Shown here piece by piece: positions 9,687-18,574 of a stretch of 64,000 nt of DNA (positions are counted from its first letter, which is position 1; each line of letters begins with the position of its first letter). The DNA comes from Agromyces cerinus subsp. cerinus (lineage in GTDB: Bacteria; Actinomycetota; Actinomycetes; Actinomycetales; Microbacteriaceae): the NCBI RefSeq assembly GCF_900142065.1, contig NZ_FSRJ01000003.1, positions 62,001 through 126,000 of the forward strand, read 5' to 3'. Both the position numbers and the translations under genes were made by a program. A model generated the notes under the pieces. That model had not been told where the DNA came from, made no database searches, and was given only the letters and a program-made list of their open reading frames with translations.

Positions 9687-10090
9687 ACGTACCCCCTCAG
9701 AACACAAACGAGCATTGCTCAGCTTTCTCCCAGTAGATCGCGTTGTCAACAGGGGCGATGCTGAGCGGCGACGTTCCTCGCGGCCGCGAAAAGTGCCGTC
9801 ACCGTGGGCCGCGCACGGCTCGGCGACGCCGTCTCTCGGAGCGAGCGCACGATGACCCGGTTCTGGCGTGCAGCGAACGCGCTCTGGTTCAGCCGAGCGC
9901 GCGCCGGGGGCCACTACCTCACGACTGCACGACGCAGGGGGCGAGTTCACGCGATCTGGGCTATTGACCATGCGGCGGCATCGGGCCACACTCGGGGTTT
10001 GGGCCGTCTATTTGGGGGGCGACGCCCTGCGCCGCCGTCTCCGACGCGCCCATGTTCATGCACGACGAAGCAGAACACGGGGGAATCACC
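9687..10090. other. gene-free stretch upstream of the gad operon
   Basis: 404 bases between the 91-residue ORF and gadB. Open frames here lack ribosome-binding sites and show no family. It holds a sigma70-like promoter at 9964-9992, and nothing else was recognised. Confidence 0.6.
9964..9992 (+). promoter_or_regulatory. candidate gadBC promoter
   Basis: TTGACC (9964-9969), 17-base spacer, CACACT (9987-9992). This gives a leader of about 90 bases before the gadB ATG at 10091. Confidence 0.45.
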
Positions 10091-11545
10091 ATGACCGACA
10101 CCAAGCCACGATCCCATTCGGGCAGCGGCAGCACCGCGCCGATCACGCCCGATCACTCGCGCCACGCCTTCGCCGGCATCAGTGACAGCAACCAGTTGAA
10201 TCCGATCTTCGCGCGAGCCGGCGAGGCCACCGACTTCCCGCTGGACCAACTGCCCGACGGCGAATCGCTGCCGGAGACCGCGTACCAGATCGTGCACGAC
10301 GAGGCCATGCTCGACGGGAACGCCCGCCTCAACCTGGCGACGTTCGTCGGCACGTGGATGGATCCGTTCGCCTCCAAGCTGTACGCGGAGTCGGCGGACA
10401 AGAACATGATCGACAAGGACGAGTACCCGCAGACGGCCGCGATCGAGACCCGATGCTGGAAGATGATCGCGAGCCTCTGGAACGCCCCGAGCGCCGAGGG
10501 GGCCATCGGCACCTCCACCATCGGCTCGTCCGAGGCGTGCATGCTCGGCGGCCTCGCGTTGAAGCGGCGCTGGCAGGTCGCGCGTCGCGCCGCGGGCAAG
10601 TCGACCGAGAAGCCGAACCTCATCCTCTCGAGCGCGGTGCAGGTGTGCTGGGAGAAGTTCTGCAACTACTGGGACGTCGAGGCTCGGTACGTGCCGATCA
10701 GCGACGAGCACAAGGTGCTCGACGGCCACGACCTCGACAAGTACGTCGACGAGAACACGATCGGGGTCGTCGCGATCATGGGCGTGACCTACACCGGCAT
10801 GTACGAGCCGGTGAAGGAGATCGCGGCAGCTCTCGACAAGATCCAGGCCGAGACCGGGCTCGACGTGAAGATCCACGTCGACGGGGCATCCGGCGGCATG
10901 ATCGCACCCTTCCTCCAGCCCGACCTCGAGTGGGACTTCCGGGTCGACCGGGTCGTCTCGATCAGCACGTCCGCCCACAAGTACGGGCTCGTGTACCCGG
11001 GACTCGGCTGGGTGGTCTGGCGCACCGTCGACGACCTGCCGAAGGACCTCGTCTTCGACGTCACGTACCTCGGTGGGCACATGCCGACGTTCGCGCTGAA
11101 CTTCTCCCGGCCCGGCGCCCAGGTGCTGCTGCAGTACTACCTGTTCCTCCGACTCGGATGGGACGGCTACCGGAAGGTCCAGCAGGCGTCGCAGGATGTC
11201 GCGGTGTACCTCTCGAGCGAGATCGGGAAGATGGACGCCTTCGAGCTCTGGAACGACGGCACCGACATCCCGGTCTTCGCGTGGCAGCTGAAGAAGGGAC
11301 ACACCGACAAGTGGAACCTGTACCACCTGTCGGAGCGCCTGCGCCTGAAGGGCTGGCTCATCCCCGCGTATCCGATGCCCGATGACATCTCCGACCTCGT
11401 CGTGCAGCGCATCGTCGTGCGCAATGGTCTGAGCCGCAACCTCGCGGAGTCACTGCTCCTCGACATCCAGGAGGCCACCGAGTTCCTCGATGCCCTCGAG
11501 TCGCCCATGCCGATCGAGGGCCAAGTGTCCTCCTTCACGCACTAG
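10091..11545 (+). CDS. gadB: glutamate decarboxylase (PLP-dependent)
   Basis: 484 residues. It converts glutamate to GABA and CO2, consuming a cytosolic proton. The PLP-binding Lys297 is in SISTSAHKYGLVYPG; HVDGASGG carries the cofactor-contacting Asp, and GTSTIGSSEACMLGG binds the phosphate. The protein ends SSFTH, a His at the very C-terminus. In E. coli GadB a near-terminal His (HT end) forms the substituted aldimine that shuts the enzyme off at neutral pH, so similar gating is possible. ATG 10091 follows GGGGGAA; an in-frame ATG at 10052 lacks one. The antiporter gene follows after 9 bases. Confidence 0.95.
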   Translation: MTDTKPRSHSGSGSTAPITPDHSRHAFAGISDSNQLNPIFARAGEATDFPLDQLPDGESLPETAYQIVHDEAMLDGNARLNLATFVGTWMDPFASKLYAESADKNMIDKDEYPQTAAIETRCWKMIASLWNAPSAEGAIGTSTIGSSEACMLGGLALKRRWQVARRAAGKSTEKPNLILSSAVQVCWEKFCNYWDVEARYVPISDEHKVLDGHDLDKYVDENTIGVVAIMGVTYTGMYEPVKEIAAALDKIQAETGLDVKIHVDGASGGMIAPFLQPDLEWDFRVDRVVSISTSAHKYGLVYPGLGWVVWRTVDDLPKDLVFDVTYLGGHMPTFALNFSRPGAQVLLQYYLFLRLGWDGYRKVQQASQDVAVYLSSEIGKMDAFELWNDGTDIPVFAWQLKKGHTDKWNLYHLSERLRLKGWLIPAYPMPDDISDLVVQRIVVRNGLSRNLAESLLLDIQEATEFLDALESPMPIEGQVSSFTH

Positions 11546-11554
11546 GAGGCGACC

Positions 11555-13195
11555 ATGACGAACACCAAGGACTCGGCGCAGACGACGCCGGGATCGGCGC
11601 CGAAACGCGCCGACGGCACCGTCGCACCGTCGCCCGAGCATGTGAAGGCGCATCCGTTCGACAAGGTCCCGCACAAGCCGGCGATCGGCGCACCGGGCGT
11701 GACCTCGCAGAAGTTCATGTCGCTCATGCAGCTGGCGATCCTGACGGTCGTCGCGGTCGCCTCGCTCCGGAGCCTGCCTGCCATGGCCGGCTACGGACTC
11801 GGGGCGATCACGCTGTTCATCATCCCGGCGATCTTCTTCCTCGTGCCGACCGCGCTCGTCGCGGCGGAACTCGCGACCGGTTGGAAGGGCGGCGTCTTCA
11901 CGTGGGTACGTGAAGCATTCGGCGGCAAGTGGGGATTCCAGGCGATCTGGCTGCAGTGGGTGCAGAACGTCGTCTGGTATCCCACCCAGATCGCGTTCAT
12001 CGCGGCCTCGCTCGCGTTCGTGTTCCTCGATCCGAACCTCGCGAACTCCGGTCTTTACACCGCGATCGTCATCCTGGTGCTGTACTGGTTCAGCACCTTC
12101 ATCACGCTGAAGGGCGGCAACCTCTTCGCCAAGGTCGGCTCCTGGAGCGGACTCGCCGGAACGATCTTCCCGGGCCTGCTGCTGATCATCTTCGGCATCT
12201 TCTGGGTGTCGACAGGGCAGACCAGCCAGATCCCGCTGACGGCGGCATCGGTCATCCCGCCCTTCACGGGGCTCGCCTCGATCGTGCTCATCGTGTCGAA
12301 CGTGCTCGCGTACGCCGGCATGGAGGTCAACGCGGTGCACGCGAACGACCTGAAGAACCCGGGCAAGCAGTACCCGAAGACGGTGCTCATCGCGTCCATC
12401 CTGATCCTCGGCATCTTCATCGTGCCGACGATCGCGATCGGACTCGTGGTGCCGTCCGACAAGCTCGGGCTCACGACGGGAATCAACCTGGCGTTCCAGG
12501 CCTACTTCGAGGCCTTCGGCGTGCCGTGGCTCACGCCGGTGCTGTCGCTGCTCATCGCACTCGGCGCGTTCGCCTCGGTGGTCACGTGGATCGCCGGTCC
12601 TTCGCGAGGTCTGCTCGCGGCCGCACGCAGCGGATACCTTCCCGTGTTCCTCCAGAAACGCAACAAGGCGGGCGTGCAGGTCGGCATCCTCACCGTGCAG
12701 GGCATCGTGGTGACGCTGCTCGCATCGCTGTTCCTCTTCGTGCCCAACATCAACACCGCGTTCATCCTGCTCGTCGACATGGCGGCGGCGCTCTACCTCA
12801 TCATGTACATGATGATGTTCGCCGCGGCGATGCGGCTGCGGTCGAAGCAGCCGCACGTCGAGCGCAGCTACCGGGTGCCGGCGATGTACGTGGTCGCGAC
12901 CATCGGGTTCCTCGCGTGCCTGGCTGCGTTCTGTCTCGGCTTCGTTCCGCCCGAGGGCTTCGGCGGTGGCGCTCCCGGTTGGACCTATCCCGTGCTCGTC
13001 GGGGTGGTCGTCCTCGCGCTGGGCGTGCCCCCGCTCATCTTCTATGCGGCGCGGAAACCCTCATGGGACCAGCGCACCGATGAGGAGAAGTCGACGTTCG
13101 ACGACGTGCTCGTGAATCCGCCGGCCGCCGCGAACCCGGCTGATGCCCCGGCGACACCGGGGGCCGCGACCGGTGGGGCGCCGCCGGCGGGCTAG
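11555..13195 (+). CDS. gadC: glutamate:GABA antiporter, APC superfamily
   Basis: 546 residues with about 12 membrane segments. The sequences ATGWKGGVFTWVREAFG and WLQWVQNVVWYPTQ are typical of GadC/YjeM amino-acid antiporters. It would exchange external glutamate for internal GABA, completing the proton-consuming cycle with gadB. The stop TAG of gadB lies in the Shine-Dalgarno (CTAGGAGGCGACC), indicating coupled translation. The C-terminal cytosolic tail (about residues 500-546) is Ala/Pro-rich; in E. coli GadC the C-terminal plug closes the channel at neutral pH, but similarity here is not evident. Confidence 0.92.
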   Translation: MTNTKDSAQTTPGSAPKRADGTVAPSPEHVKAHPFDKVPHKPAIGAPGVTSQKFMSLMQLAILTVVAVASLRSLPAMAGYGLGAITLFIIPAIFFLVPTALVAAELATGWKGGVFTWVREAFGGKWGFQAIWLQWVQNVVWYPTQIAFIAASLAFVFLDPNLANSGLYTAIVILVLYWFSTFITLKGGNLFAKVGSWSGLAGTIFPGLLLIIFGIFWVSTGQTSQIPLTAASVIPPFTGLASIVLIVSNVLAYAGMEVNAVHANDLKNPGKQYPKTVLIASILILGIFIVPTIAIGLVVPSDKLGLTTGINLAFQAYFEAFGVPWLTPVLSLLIALGAFASVVTWIAGPSRGLLAAARSGYLPVFLQKRNKAGVQVGILTVQGIVVTLLASLFLFVPNINTAFILLVDMAAALYLIMYMMMFAAAMRLRSKQPHVERSYRVPAMYVVATIGFLACLAAFCLGFVPPEGFGGGAPGWTYPVLVGVVVLALGVPPLIFYAARKPSWDQRTDEEKSTFDDVLVNPPAAANPADAPATPGAATGGAPPAG

Positions 13196-13221
13196 CTCCA
13201 CGGTCCTCGAACGAAGCGGGC

Positions 13222-13251
13222 GGGTGACGGATGCCGCGGCATCCGTCACCC
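13222..13251. terminator. perfect palindromic hairpin between convergent gadC and amtB
   Basis: GGGTGACGGATGCC (13222-13235) pairs perfectly with GGCATCCGTCACCC (13238-13251). The right arm covers the amtB stop codon (13246-13248). It could terminate both convergent transcripts. Confidence 0.7.
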
Positions 13252-14841
13252 GTCTGTTCGTGTCGTCGGTCCCGACAGCGCACCGCGACTCAACACCGCC
13301 TGCACCGCCACCACCGCTGAAGCCGGCACCTGGACCTCCACCCGGGATGCACGTACGAAACCGACATCCGCCGACTGCTCGCGCACCGAGACGCGCCGCC
13401 CGTTGCCGGCCGCGACGGTGACCTCGTCGAGCACGATCGACTGCGCCCCCGCTGCGAAGAGCTCGGCGCGCAGCGCCTCGGCGTCGAGCACCTCGATGAC
13501 GGCCGTGATCGTCTGCCCGTCGGCGCCGATGGGCGGCCCGGCGTGCCGGCCGCTCGACTCGCCGCCCTGGCGATCACGCGTGAGCACGGCAGCGAGGTGG
13601 TAGGCGTCGCTGCCCTGCTCCTCCTGGTCGGCGTCGCGTGCGGGATCGGAGGAGGCGCGGAGCCCCACGGTGACCTGCGTCAGCATGGCGATGATCCAGG
13701 TGACGACGAAGGCGTACGCGATGACGACGACGAGGGCCAGCGCCTGGTCGCCGAGCAGTCCCCAGCCACCTCCCGAGAACAGTCCGTCGCGGCCCGCGGA
13801 GTTGATCGCCGCGGAGCCGAAGAGGCCGAGCAGCAGCGACCCGAGGATGCCGCCGACGAAGTGCACGGCGATCACGTCGAGCGCGTCGTCGAACCTGAAG
13901 AAGGTCTTGAGTTTCAGCGCGAGCGTGCAGACGATGCCGGCGATGATGCCGATCGCGAGTGCGGCGAGGGTGTTCACGTACCCGGCCGCCGGCGTGATGG
14001 TCGCGAGTCCGGCGACCGCGCCGGTGATGCCGCCGATCACCGTGGCCCGCTTCGTGCGGATGACCTCGCAGACGAGCCAGGCGGCCATGCCGCCGGCCGC
14101 GGCGACCTGGGTGTTCAGCAGCGCCTGCGCCGCCACCTCGTTCGCCTGGAGCGCCCCGCCGGCGTTGAAGCCGAACCACCCGAACCAGAGGATGCCGCCG
14201 CCGACGACCGCGAGGGGGATGGAATGCGGGATCGACCGGGTCGTCGGCCAGCCCGACCTGCGCCCCACCACCGCGAGCACCGCGAGTGCGGCAGCCCCTG
14301 CCGCGGCGTGCACGACGATGCCGCCCGCCCAGTCCTGAGCGCCGAGCTGCGCGAGCCAGCCATCGGGATCGAAGAGCCAGTGCGCGATGACCGGGTAGAC
14401 GAGGATCGACCAGAAGACCAGCACGACGACCCATCCGAGCGGGCGCAGCCTGCCCACGGTCGCGCCGGTGAGCAGCGCGGGCGTGATGATCGCGAACATC
14501 ATCTGGAACACGACGAACGCGAGCGTCGGGATCGCGACGTCGGGGTCGACGACGTGCAGCGCCGGTGCCGGCGCGCCCTCCACCCCGTTGAGTCCGAAGA
14601 GGCTCAGGTCGCCGACGAGGCCGGACCAGGTGTCCGGGCCGAACGCGAGGCTGAATCCCACCAGCACCCACGTGATCGAGACGACCGCGAGCGGCACGAT
14701 GTTCTGCTGCATGATGACGAGCACGTTGCTGCGGCGCACGAGACCCGCGTAGAAGAACGCCAGCCCTGGCACCATGAACAGCACCATTGCAGCGCACACG
14801 AGGACCCAGGCGGTGTCGCCGCTGTCGATCGCTTCGGACAT
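13246..14841 (-). CDS. amtB: ammonium channel AmtB with C-terminal PII-like domain
   Basis: 531 residues. Residues 1-425 form an 11-helix Amt channel: GLAFFYAGLVRRSNVL, the Phe gate region, and the twin conserved His in DWAGGIVVHAAAG and AVHFVGGILGSLL. After a linker, residues 445-531 resemble a PII (GlnB/GlnK) fold: VIEVLDAEALRAELFAAG, then a shortened T-loop with GNGRR, then SRVEVQVPASAVVAVQAVL. The T-loop Tyr51 that is uridylylated in GlnB is absent. The extra domain probably gates the pore in cis. ATG 14841 has GAGGAGG. It is monocistronic, with no separate glnK next door. Confidence 0.9.
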   Translation of the reverse strand: MSEAIDSGDTAWVLVCAAMVLFMVPGLAFFYAGLVRRSNVLVIMQQNIVPLAVVSITWVLVGFSLAFGPDTWSGLVGDLSLFGLNGVEGAPAPALHVVDPDVAIPTLAFVVFQMMFAIITPALLTGATVGRLRPLGWVVVLVFWSILVYPVIAHWLFDPDGWLAQLGAQDWAGGIVVHAAAGAAALAVLAVVGRRSGWPTTRSIPHSIPLAVVGGGILWFGWFGFNAGGALQANEVAAQALLNTQVAAAGGMAAWLVCEVIRTKRATVIGGITGAVAGLATITPAAGYVNTLAALAIGIIAGIVCTLALKLKTFFRFDDALDVIAVHFVGGILGSLLLGLFGSAAINSAGRDGLFSGGGWGLLGDQALALVVVIAYAFVVTWIIAMLTQVTVGLRASSDPARDADQEEQGSDAYHLAAVLTRDRQGGESSGRHAGPPIGADGQTITAVIEVLDAEALRAELFAAGAQSIVLDEVTVAAGNGRRVSVREQSADVGFVRASRVEVQVPASAVVAVQAVLSRGALSGPTTRTDG

Positions 14842-14993
14842 GGTCGAACCTCCTCGGGGTGGAACCCCTGGTTCCGGAAGGAGATCGGATCGGATTTCCG
14901 GGCCCCCCGGACCGGATCACACCATCTGATCGCCGACCATACGCCGCCGCGGCTCACCGCGGTACCCCGGAGATGCGATCAGGCGGGTGAAGA

Positions 14994-15029
14994 ACGAGGG
15001 GGCGGATGCCGCAGCATCCGCCCCCTCGT
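14994..15029 (-). terminator. hairpin terminator downstream of proX
   Basis: A 16-bp perfect stem (ACGAGGGGGCGGATGC and its complement) with a four-base loop, CGCA, lies 31 bases after the proX stop. It contains the CGGATGC element common in this window. Confidence 0.75.
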
Positions 15030-15060
15030 CTCCCCCGCCTGTTCGCGTGGCGCGGTCGAG

Positions 15061-15954
15061 CTACTTCGTGAGCGTGTCGACGTAGTCGCGGTTGTCGGCG
15101 ATCCACTGCTCGACGATCGGCGCGTAGTCGTCGGAGCCGTCGGCGTTGAACATCGCGTTCTCGAGCGAGAAGAGCAGCTCGGAGTCCATCTCGAAGTCCT
15201 TCAGCCAGCCGGCGAGGGTCGGGTGGGTCTCCGCGAAGCTCTTGCCGCCGAAGGAGTGGATGCCCTCGGCCTCGCCGAGCGCGCCCTCGGGATCTTCGAG
15301 GTCCTTCAGGGGGAAGGCGTCGTACGCCCAGTGCGGGCGCCAGAGCGTGACGGCGACGTTCTCGCCGGCCTCGGTCGCGGCGGTCAGCTCGGCGAGCATC
15401 GCCGGCGTCGAGCTCGTCAGGTAGTCCATCTTCTCGAGGCCGTAGGTCGGGATGACCTCGTCGGTCGTGACCCGGTTCAGGCCCGAGCCGGGCTCGATGC
15501 CGACGAGTCGGTTGTCGAACAGCTCCGCGTTCGCGGCGAGGTCGGCGAGCGAGTCGACCGGGGCGTCCTCGTTCACGGCGATCGTGAGCTTGGCGTCCTC
15601 GTTCCAGGCGCCGAGGTCGACGAGGTCGTCGCCGTACTGCTCGATGTAGTCGGCGTGCGTGATCGGCAGCCACGTGTCGAGGGTCACGTCGTAGTCGTCG
15701 GTCGTGAGGCCGGAGTAGACCGGCGCGGGGTCGGCGTACTCAAGCGTGACGTCGTAGCCCTGCTCGGTGAGCACGGCCTTCCAGAGCTCGCTCGCGGCGA
15801 TGCCCTCGTCCCAGCCGTTGAACACGGCGATCGTGACGGACTTCTCATCGCCGTTGTCGAGGGTCTCGGCCTCCGCGCCGGCGGCGCAGCCGCTGAGGGC
15901 CAGGGCGGAGACCGCCCCGAGTGCGAGTGCTCCGGTGAGCATGCGCTTCTTCAT
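15061..15954 (-). CDS. proX: glycine betaine/proline-type substrate-binding lipoprotein
   Basis: 297 residues. A signal peptide with lipobox LSGC (Cys23) precedes an OpuAC-type domain. Aromatic residues suited to cation-pi binding of quaternary ammonium are seen in FNGWDEG, LDTWLPITHADY and LWRPHWAY. ATG 15954 follows GGAGGAAAGG. It is the last gene of proV-proW-proX and delivers betaine-type osmolytes to ProW. The protein is acidic, as expected for an extracellular actinobacterial binding protein. Confidence 0.92.
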   Translation of the reverse strand: MKKRMLTGALALGAVSALALSGCAAGAEAETLDNGDEKSVTIAVFNGWDEGIAASELWKAVLTEQGYDVTLEYADPAPVYSGLTTDDYDVTLDTWLPITHADYIEQYGDDLVDLGAWNEDAKLTIAVNEDAPVDSLADLAANAELFDNRLVGIEPGSGLNRVTTDEVIPTYGLEKMDYLTSSTPAMLAELTAATEAGENVAVTLWRPHWAYDAFPLKDLEDPEGALGEAEGIHSFGGKSFAETHPTLAGWLKDFEMDSELLFSLENAMFNADGSDDYAPIVEQWIADNRDYVDTLTK

Positions 15955-16034: not shown

Positions 16035-16958
16035 TCAGGCGGTGGCGGATGCCGCGGGCAGGCGTTCCGCCTCGGGGCCGAGCGGCTCCGCGGCATCCGT
16101 CGCCGGTGCCTGCTTGCGCGGTGCGCCGGGCTTGCGCGGGGTGCCGAGCGCGCCGGTGACCCGGTCGAGGATGATCGCGAGGATCACGACGGAGAGCCCG
16201 GCCTCGAAGCCGAGGCCCACGTCGATGCGGGTGAGCGACTGCACGACCTCGCCGCCGAGCCCGCCGGCGCCGACCATGCCGGCGATGACGACCATCGAGA
16301 GCGAGAGCATGATGACCTGGTTGACGCCGGCCATGATGCTCGGCATCGCGAGCGGCAGCTGGATCTGGCGGAGGATGCGCCACGGCGATGCGCCGAAGGC
16401 CTGGCCGGCCTCGACGACCTCCTTGTCGACGCCGCGGATGCCGAGCTCGGTGAGCCTGACACCGGGGGCCATCGCGAAGATGATCGTCGCCACGATGCCC
16501 GGTACGACGCCCACCCGGAAGAGGATGAGCGCGGGGATCAGGTAGACCATCGCCGGCATCGTCTGCATGAAGTCGAGGATCGGGCGGATGACCTTCGACG
16601 CCACGTCGGAGCGGGCGGCGAGCACGCCGAGCGGCACCGAGATCACGACGGCGATCAGGGAGGCGACGAGCACGAGGGCGAGCGTCGACATGGCGTTGTC
16701 CCACTGGTCGACGCCGACGATCACGAGGAGGCCGACGGCGGTGCCGACGGCGAGCTTCCAGCCCTTCGCGAGCCAGGCGACGGCCGCGAGCGCGAGGACG
16801 ACGATCCAGAACGGCGGCGTCTGCAGCGCGAAGTCGACGAGGTCGTAGAAGCCGGCGAAGATGTTGCGCACGACGGTGAAGAACCCGCCGAACACGTCGG
16901 TGATGAAGTGGATGAATGCATCGGCCCAATCGCCGAGCGGGAGACGGAAGTCGTTCAT
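16035..16958 (-). CDS. proW: glycine betaine ABC transporter permease
   Basis: 307 residues with about 6-7 membrane helices. The EAA loop is present in VVEAGQAFGASPWRILRQIQLPLAMPSI form (GxxxxxxxxxLP). The N-terminal segment MNDFRLPLGDWADAFIHFIT is like that of ProW/OpuAB. Its ATG overlaps the proV stop (ATGA). An Ala/Pro-rich tail of about 40 residues extends the C-terminus. It forms the membrane channel of the osmoprotectant importer. Confidence 0.92.
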   Translation of the reverse strand: MNDFRLPLGDWADAFIHFITDVFGGFFTVVRNIFAGFYDLVDFALQTPPFWIVVLALAAVAWLAKGWKLAVGTAVGLLVIVGVDQWDNAMSTLALVLVASLIAVVISVPLGVLAARSDVASKVIRPILDFMQTMPAMVYLIPALILFRVGVVPGIVATIIFAMAPGVRLTELGIRGVDKEVVEAGQAFGASPWRILRQIQLPLAMPSIMAGVNQVIMLSLSMVVIAGMVGAGGLGGEVVQSLTRIDVGLGFEAGLSVVILAIILDRVTGALGTPRKPGAPRKQAPATDAAEPLGPEAERLPAASATA

Positions 16959-18367
16959 GCCGGGCTCCTCTCCCCCGCGGCATCCGCTCGCGTGGCTTCG
17001 GCGCGGATGTCAGCGGCTTCCGCCGCCGCTGCCGCCACGGCGTTGGCGTCGGCCGCGTCGGCGATCGCCGTGTCCGGTCGGGCCGTGCGGTGCAGCGTCG
17101 CGGTGATCACGTCGACCGGGATCGTCGCGGGCGTCTCGATGACGGCGTGCTCGCCGGTGTTCGACGACACGTTGCCGAGCGCGGCGAGCAGCGTGACGCG
17201 CGGCACGGCGCCGAGCAGGCGACCCTGCTCGTCGACGACGGCGAGCGGGAGCTGACTCTCGACCGCGCTCTCGAAGAGCTCGGAGAGGTGCTCGTCGGCG
17301 CTGACGACGGGGTGGTCGTCGCTGATCGCGGGCTCGAGGGATCGCTCTCCGCGTTGCACGAGGCGGAGCACGTCGCGGTCGTGCACGACGCCGAGCAGCC
17401 GACGGCCGCTGCCGACCACGAAGACCATCGAGGTCTGCAGGTCGCGCATCGCGCGGAGCGCCGCACGCGGTCCGGCCGAGGCGGTGACGACGGCGCGGGG
17501 CGCCTCCATCACGTTTCCGGCGGTCAGCACGCGCGAACGGTCGACGTCCTGCACGAACTGGGCGACGTAGTCGTCGGCGGGGTCGGTGAGGATCTCCTCC
17601 GCGGTGCCGAGCTGCACGATGCGGCCGTCGCGCATGACCGCGATGCGGTCGCCGAGGAACATCGCCTCGTTGAGGTCGTGGGTGATGAAGACGATCGTCT
17701 TGCCCAGCTCCTGCTGCAGTTCGACGAGCTGCTCCTGCATCTCCTTGCGGATCAGCGGATCGAGCGCCGAGAACGCCTCGTCCATGAGCAGGATGTCGGT
17801 GTTCGACGCGAGCGCCCTGGCGAGGCCGACGCGCTGCTGCATGCCGCCCGAGAGCTCCGAGGGCATCTTGTCGCCCCAGCCGCCGAGGCCGACGCGCTCG
17901 AGGATGTGCTCGGCGCGCTCCCGCCGCTCGGCGGTGGGTACTCCCTGGATCTCGAGCCCGTAGCCCGCGTTCTCGAGCACGCTGCGGTGCGGGAGCAGCG
18001 CGAAGTGCTGGAAGACCATGGAGACGTGGCGACGACGCACCTCGCGGAGGCGCTTCGGCGACATGCCCGTGATGGTCTCCCCCATCACCGTGACGGTGCC
18101 GTCGGTCGGCTCGAGCAGGCCGTTCAGGGTGCGGATGAGCGTCGACTTGCCGGAGCCCGACAGCCCCATGACGACGAAGATCTCGCCGCGTCGCACGTCG
18201 AAGTCGGCGTCGATCACCGCGGCGGTGCCGAGCGGCGCGAGTTCGGCGCGACCGGCGCCGGCGCGGAGCCGATCGAGCGCCTCCTTGGGCTTCCGCCCGA
18301 AGAACTTGGTGAGGCGACGGACCGAGAGCGCCGGTGTTCCGGCCTCGGGTACGGGTGTTTCGGACAT
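16955..18367 (-). CDS. proV: glycine betaine ABC transporter ATPase with CBS domains
   Basis: 470 residues. Walker A GLSGSGKST, Q-loop FQHFALLPHRSV, signature LSGGMQQRVGLARAL, Walker B ILLMDEAFSALDP and H-loop FITHDLNEA are all intact. A CBS pair occupies about residues 295-410 (MVFVVGSGRRLLGVVHDRDVLR and LAVVDEQGRLLGAVPR). In OpuA the CBS pair senses ionic strength or c-di-AMP. The tail is Ala-rich. ATG 18367 with GGGAG was chosen over 18388. First gene of the operon. Confidence 0.93.
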   Translation of the reverse strand: MSETPVPEAGTPALSVRRLTKFFGRKPKEALDRLRAGAGRAELAPLGTAAVIDADFDVRRGEIFVVMGLSGSGKSTLIRTLNGLLEPTDGTVTVMGETITGMSPKRLREVRRRHVSMVFQHFALLPHRSVLENAGYGLEIQGVPTAERRERAEHILERVGLGGWGDKMPSELSGGMQQRVGLARALASNTDILLMDEAFSALDPLIRKEMQEQLVELQQELGKTIVFITHDLNEAMFLGDRIAVMRDGRIVQLGTAEEILTDPADDYVAQFVQDVDRSRVLTAGNVMEAPRAVVTASAGPRAALRAMRDLQTSMVFVVGSGRRLLGVVHDRDVLRLVQRGERSLEPAISDDHPVVSADEHLSELFESAVESQLPLAVVDEQGRLLGAVPRVTLLAALGNVSSNTGEHAVIETPATIPVDVITATLHRTARPDTAIADAADANAVAAAAAEAADIRAEATRADAAGERSPA

Positions 18368-18574
18368 GGACTGGCTCCCGGAGCGCACGCCGAACGCCGC
18401 GCACGTCGAACGTGCGCGGTCGCGAATCGGGCAGGGCTGACTCGTGGGTCACGGCCGGGTTGACGGCGATTCGGATGCCTCGGCTCAAGCCCCGGTCTGG
18501 TGCGACCTCGGGCGAAACACGACTTCCGCGCATCCGGCCATCGGGGCCGGATGCCACGCCGCCGAACCATACGC

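Follow-up and report, generated by a model that had tools for sequence, protein, structure and literature searches.

The amt-PII fusion gene (P0001) at 13246..14841 on the minus strand of the window, the whole 64,000-nucleotide stretch of Agromyces cerinus subsp. cerinus DNA analysed here, encodes an ammonium channel followed by a C-terminal tail which, judged by its sequence, is descended from GlnK/PII. The best reading of the data, to which we give about an even chance of being right, is that this domain would serve as a tethered, effector-blind T-loop plug or throttle on the Amt channel. The computed basis for it comprises the PII ancestry and fold of the tail, the gathering of the fused genes in one clade, selection on the tail, loss of the effector residues, a kept arginine and altered sites in the channel.

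The open reading frame (14841 to 13246, 531 codons) lies where an earlier note, made from the sequence alone, had placed it, and is preceded by an AGGAGG ribosome-binding site (14849..14854) 7 nt before the ATG. Residues 1–415 (13597..14841) form the Amt channel core, and Ammonium_transp (PF00909, residues 11–414, 358 bits against a cut-off of 23.2) is the sole Pfam family assigned to the full-length protein, which NCBIfam TIGR00836 matches at 394.7 bits, above its cut-off of 343.3. A linker (residues 416–440, 13522..13596) leads to the degenerate PII-like domain (residues 441–531, 13249..13521), in which the T-loop hairpin, delimited by the AlphaFold models and tail conservation, covers residues 477–495 (13357..13413). 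A perfect 16+16 nt inverted repeat (13221..13252), terminator-like and with no T run, sits between the convergent ends of the amt-PII gene and a permease gene; no sigma-70-like promoters or T-tailed terminators were found in 13150–15100. The fusion gene lies downstream of an ABC transporter operon of osmoprotectant type, in which an ATPase with a CBS domain (16955–18388) is encoded beside a permease gene on the same strand. Between this operon and amt-PII, at 14994–15029, there is a further perfect 16 nt inverted repeat with a 4 nt loop, perhaps the terminator of the ABC operon.

The assignment of the tail to PII comes from profile comparisons in several directions. The isolated window tail matches PF00543 (P-II) over profile positions 3–74/75 with 16 and 16.8 bits (E 0.016 and 0.0088), under the curated cut-off of that family (16.8 vs 25 bits). 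When nine tails were compared with PF00543, 8/9 matched at 16.7–24.8 bits and the tail of locus L116 gave no match; because the tails score below the cut-off, Pfam leaves the domain unflagged. Against a profile built from 119 separate GlnKs the window tail reaches 15.5 bits and the best shuffled tail 11.9, in a control of 7000 shuffled tails (1000 for each of 7 tails) of which 6852 scored. The weakest relative, L116, gives 10.4 bits, under the two best shuffles (11.9 and 11.3), and the tail of L214, at 12.0 bits, is barely over the best shuffles. A profile of three tails picks up separate GlnKs in 25/25 genomes of two other genera at E-values of about 1e-7 to 1e-9, a 16-tail profile retrieves PII chains of Mycobacterium tuberculosis from the PDB (E 4e-11) in an alignment that pairs the T-loop arginines, and profile–profile comparison of the tails with 24 GlnKs returns a probability of 97.4 (E 9.7e-12). 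Loci L258 to L262 are near-copies that add little independent evidence, and the set of 16 tails used for conservation includes two of them, L258 and L260.

The predicted structure agrees with this assignment. AlphaFold, given an alignment of seven tails only, with no GlnK or PII sequence, and a single chain, models the tail as beta-alpha-beta-(T-loop)-beta-alpha-beta (pLDDT 78.4, pTM 0.66); the two long strands are joined by a turn at R487-E488. Structure prediction of the tail was a check that the earlier note had named, and it yields a PII fold, for which the top Foldseek matches are PII proteins (3lf0, E 2.5e-6). The order of PII elements described in the note is present in the model, but the T-loop that it called shortened is barely so, with one residue missing in the alignment, and its order omits a final short strand, which the models predict. 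VIA-align places LarC2 at the top (Z 10.4), level with GlnK1 (Z 10.2), with CutA at about 9. The fold by itself thus fails to tell PII from LarC2 or CutA, and PII was chosen over them because the sequence profiles decide. In the full-length model, a single chain built from a 40-sequence alignment of Amts and fused proteins, most of the channel exceeds pLDDT 90, one loop (96–99) falling below 50, and the tail halves 441–470 and 501–520 stand at 83–92. The T-loop region 471–500 has pLDDT 47–70, with its tip (482–489) below 50, the last ten residues are at 66 or lower, and residues 416–437 lie below 50, for which reason the linker 416–440 is probably disordered. PF00909, the tail profiles, AlphaFold and Foldseek together thus bear out the description of a complete Amt followed by a PII-like domain.

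Fused genes are rare, and 19 such proteins (the window's and 18 others) were found in three actinobacterial families. In the genus, no other fused copy occurs in the 59 other genomes, with no match but the window's own above 277 bits; the window's genome apart, a search of 398 family genomes gave no fused copy (none above 345 bits), nor among the matches listed in 394 genomes of the class (none above 450 bits). A search with the tail only gave, besides the window, 4 weak matches in 299 family genomes (E 0.0015–0.0094), and the tail alone found nothing in the named genome collection. With the full protein as query in that collection, two fused relatives stood among the best 80 loci, the first to be found: Rhodococcus sp. 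CH91 (core identity 61%) and Cellulomonas cellasea ET82 (59.5%). Read in frame, fused genes occur in 3/18 genomes of Rhodococcus and 3/7 of Cellulomonas. Across 221 genomes of the Cellulomonas family only three reach fused-tail scores (144–149 bits), the other matches listed being at 54 bits or less, and the 17 lower-scoring ones that were read are separate GlnKs, some inside long open frames. In the Rhodococcus family 15/401 genomes match at E<=1e-18 and all read as fusions; one of the fused genes, locus L266 (G1217), has no in-frame N-terminus, probably through a frameshift in the gene or the assembly. A plasmid collection searched with one fused relative gave no match at E<=1e-60. An assembly artefact or single-strain oddity is ruled out by the 18 further fused genes. 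We also considered whether the fusion is common in actinobacterial Amts, which was ruled out: 16 long alignments (query end beyond residue 500) are read-through past the stop codon of amt. In 15/16 loci they run on into a separate glnK immediately downstream, an arrangement of non-fused relatives, whereas L089 has another gene there.

A tree of 115 Amt cores places the 18 different fused rows together on one side of a single branch (SH-aLRT 100, in a quick search with this support measure and no bootstrap). The window protein branches inside the fused clade, with members of the Rhodococcus family, and because the 59 sampled genomes of its own genus are without a fused gene, it was likely acquired horizontally by the window lineage. 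A decaying remnant, left by read-through fusion with a dying glnK and functionless, would agree with the weak PII similarity and with a window tail only 26–38% identical to the other tails. We think it very improbable, since a single clade spans three families and, in six non-independent pairs from a Rhodococcus and a Cellulomonas trio, analysed with our own Nei–Gojobori script and representing the relatives rather than the window tail, omega is 0.07–0.23 for the tail, beside 0.05–0.12 for the core and 0.25–0.48 for the linker. In the Rhodococcus and Cellulomonas groups the tail is a maintained domain under purifying selection.

What has been maintained is revealed by comparison with the 119 GlnKs, in which G27, T29, G35, G37, R38, Q39, K58, the B-loop GDGK (G87–K90), R101 and R103 are invariant or nearly so. 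None of these positions, those for ATP and 2-oxoglutarate among them, is kept in any of the 19 tails, where positions 87–103 count as unaligned, the profile alignment of the tails stopping before them. Q39 and K58 constitute the 2-oxoglutarate switch of PII, according to the accessible text of PMC3198391; the K58 position is Arg in 18 tails and Ala in the window tail. Tyr51, the modified T-loop residue, is missing in 19/19 tails and replaced by Ala in the window, which agrees with the absence of the uridylylated Tyr remarked on in the earlier note. T5, G24, R47 and R60 are kept in 19/19. Arg487 (13381..13383), the equivalent of GlnK Arg47, is the only invariant T-loop residue across the 16 distinct tails, and the window tail has Glu directly after it in place of the Gly of the clade. 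In the accessible part of PMC4274968, GlnK Arg47 is described as blocking ammonia conduction in the complex with AmtB, and Escherichia coli GlnK R47A as binding AmtB as the wild type does. With R47 kept and Q39, K58 and Tyr51 gone, the tail has the blocking residue without the sensing ones. The fusion and the PII fold are real, as a working PII in cis, gated by nucleotides or 2-oxoglutarate, would have them, and this was the conclusion drawn in the earlier note; we give it almost no credence, because the nucleotide and 2-oxoglutarate residues are missing throughout the tails and no GDGK B-loop or C-loop arginine pair could be aligned. PII in cis is thus supported, and the built-in gating disfavoured.

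The channel part has changed as well. Comparison of 19 fused with 92 non-fused Amts, numbered by alignment to E. coli AmtB, shows D170, H178 and H327 (AmtB D160, H168 and H318) intact in 19/19 fused proteins, and since the twin histidines and Asp160 are intact, the fused Amt is expected to be a conducting channel. The position of AmtB Trp148 is F157 in the window protein. The residue after Asp160 is Phe in 91/92 non-fused Amts and Trp in 19/19 fused ones (Trp171 in the window, 14329..14331). The Ser219 position is Ser in 92/92 non-fused proteins, Asp in 18 fused ones and Gly in the window (Gly229, 14155..14157). In the accessible part of a 2023 review (PMC10433425) Ser219 belongs to the S1 ammonium-recruiting site, and S219A in AmtB raised transport. 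Since Ser219 is common in Amts but does not strictly define them, we treat its change as variation at one site of a channel that otherwise conforms to Amt. In the C-terminal region the H-x-E of non-fused Amts (H 89/92, E 91/92) is altered, with Q in 19/19 fused proteins at the first position and E never at the last, and reads Q409-G410-S411 in the window (13609..13617).

The alteration of H-x-E is also relevant to the main rival of the plug, in which the tail is a shield that covers the face where GlnK docks and thereby keeps the cell's own GlnK from closing the channel. The channel would then stay open when ammonium is plentiful, e.g. to let urease-made ammonia leave. A separate GlnK is indeed also held by six fused genomes of two other genera, and the urease neighbourhood of the relatives described below fits this reading as well. 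The window genome, however, contains no GlnK to be shielded from as far as PF00543 detects, with no match at E<=1 by a search that is positive in 13/14 control genomes, and the blocking arginine is the single T-loop residue that every tail has preserved. We consider the shield unlikely, both as an obstacle to docking and as a means of keeping the channel open. The search for a separate glnK, likewise proposed in the earlier note, bears on its claim that a cis-acting PII replaces this protein. PII is present in cis and GlnK was not found; yet PF00543 is missing (E<=0.1) in 56/59 other genomes of the genus too, so absence of GlnK does not track the fusion, and the six genomes above keep both. 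Within the genus PF00543 matches occur in 3/60 genomes (L113, L114 and L115). Like the tail, these PII-like proteins match the family, but they are separate, and in two loci (L113 by Pfam, L114 by eye) they adjoin DabA, an inorganic carbon transporter subunit, and not an Amt. The window genome has a second, tail-less Amt. Among other tail-less Amts, two other genus genomes (L105 and L106) have a second, divergent one, near-identical to each other, and on a Frondihabitans plasmid (L196) one is immediately preceded by genes for a nitrilase-type hydrolase and an APC permease.

The genes around the fusion differ between the window and its relatives. Urease motifs lie within a few kilobases in 11 of 15 fused loci with wide flanks, on the other strand in one of the 11; three further fused genomes were left out of this count, in which urease was recognised by sequence motifs, its subunits being confirmed by Pfam for L268 and L274 only. 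The next same-strand gene in L258 and L265, ureA by similarity to the ureA of L268, starts 51 bases after the amt-PII stop, and in Rhodococcus CH91 the distance from this stop to the start of ureA is 353 bases. No urease motifs were found in the wide flanks of three Cellulomonas loci and G1079, nor near the window gene. There, amt-PII converges with a gene pair (10052–13195) for a pyridoxal-dependent decarboxylase and an amino-acid permease; we take the decarboxylase, by resemblance, to be a glutamate decarboxylase and the pair to be gadB-gadC-like. Urease and gad-type systems can both raise pH, a trait of the pair that may or may not be related to amt-PII. Within the stretches compared, no partner gene is common to the window and the other fused loci, the fused gene apart. 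The neighbourhood also bears on a scaffold role, whereby the domain would stabilise the Amt trimer or dock a partner such as urease with no part in gating. Many fused genes lie near urease genes and the effector residues are gone, both as this role would have it; the strict conservation of the T-loop arginine speaks against it, as does the want of a nearby urease in 4/15 wide-flank loci and in the window, and we regard it as rather improbable.

Taken as a plug or throttle, the fusion can be pictured as follows. An ancestral actinobacterial amt and its neighbouring glnK probably became one gene, and three tethered PII-like domains would probably assemble beneath the Amt trimer, with T-loop hairpins presenting Arg487 to the cytoplasmic pore exits. 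The domain would then probably act as a permanent plug or throttle at high local concentration, one that would no longer read ATP/ADP, 2-oxoglutarate or Tyr51 modification, and the gate may open to something else, e.g. pH or ammonium at the pore. That many relatives have urease nearby suggests that the channel handles ammonia made inside the cell, where it would help to limit the flow without reliance on the 2-oxoglutarate signal. Several points count against the plug. A permanently shut channel would be useless, loss of the effector sites would also fit a mere scaffold, the T-loop tip is predicted with the low confidence given above, and the window departs from its clade in the Glu after the arginine, Gly229 for Asp and Ala at K58. 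Kept Arg487 is by itself no proof of docking, because E. coli GlnK R47A still binds AmtB.

The AmtB-GlnK pair is the classic example of a channel plugged by a signal protein. The E. coli complex (PDB 2NS1, 2NUU) and actinobacterial amt-glnK have the same two proteins in the same order as the fusion, with the T-loop arginine kept, and PDB sequence matches include both partners. The fusion differs from the pair in being one polypeptide and in having lost the effector and modification residues and the C-terminal H-x-E of Amt. A second comparison is with Ks-Amt5 of Ca. Kuenenia stuttgartiensis, an Amt with a C-terminal histidine kinase, whose kinase tail is the only C-terminal addition named in the accessible part of the 2023 review (PMC10433425). 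Both have a cytoplasmic C-terminal domain, but that of Ks-Amt5 is a signalling kinase and that of the fused protein PII-like; there is no histidine kinase in the fused protein, which is matched only by PF00909 (full protein) and PF00543 (tail). Read by eye, four Amts are fused to a histidine-kinase-like domain with an HDGVGQ-type box in hosts outside the anammox bacterium that has Ks-Amt5: a Bacillota MAG (L147), uncultured Firmicutes (L190), a Fusobacteria MAG (L135) and Clostridium aminobutyricum (L174). No title or abstract opening among the papers listed in the literature searches, which mostly did not extend to subscription papers, names an Amt-PII fusion, and novelty is unproven.

These data suggest that the two jobs of PII have been split, as the plug residue is kept and the known sensing residues are gone. 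The fusion would allow the effect of a T-loop on the Amt pore to be asked without effectors, in a single polypeptide and at a fixed 1:1 ratio. With the tested tails under the Pfam PII threshold, the clade is easily overlooked, and its urease linkage in the relatives suggests a role of Amt different from external uptake. As a tentative proposal, which we think less probable than the plug itself, there may be an unnamed actinobacterial Amt clade in which a PII domain was turned into a fixed, effector-blind T-loop gate, with a redesigned Ser219-to-Asp site and C-terminal region. Its genes would often adjoin those of urease or form what looks like an operon with them, and the channel may be used for controlled release or for recapture of internal ammonia, not for scavenging.
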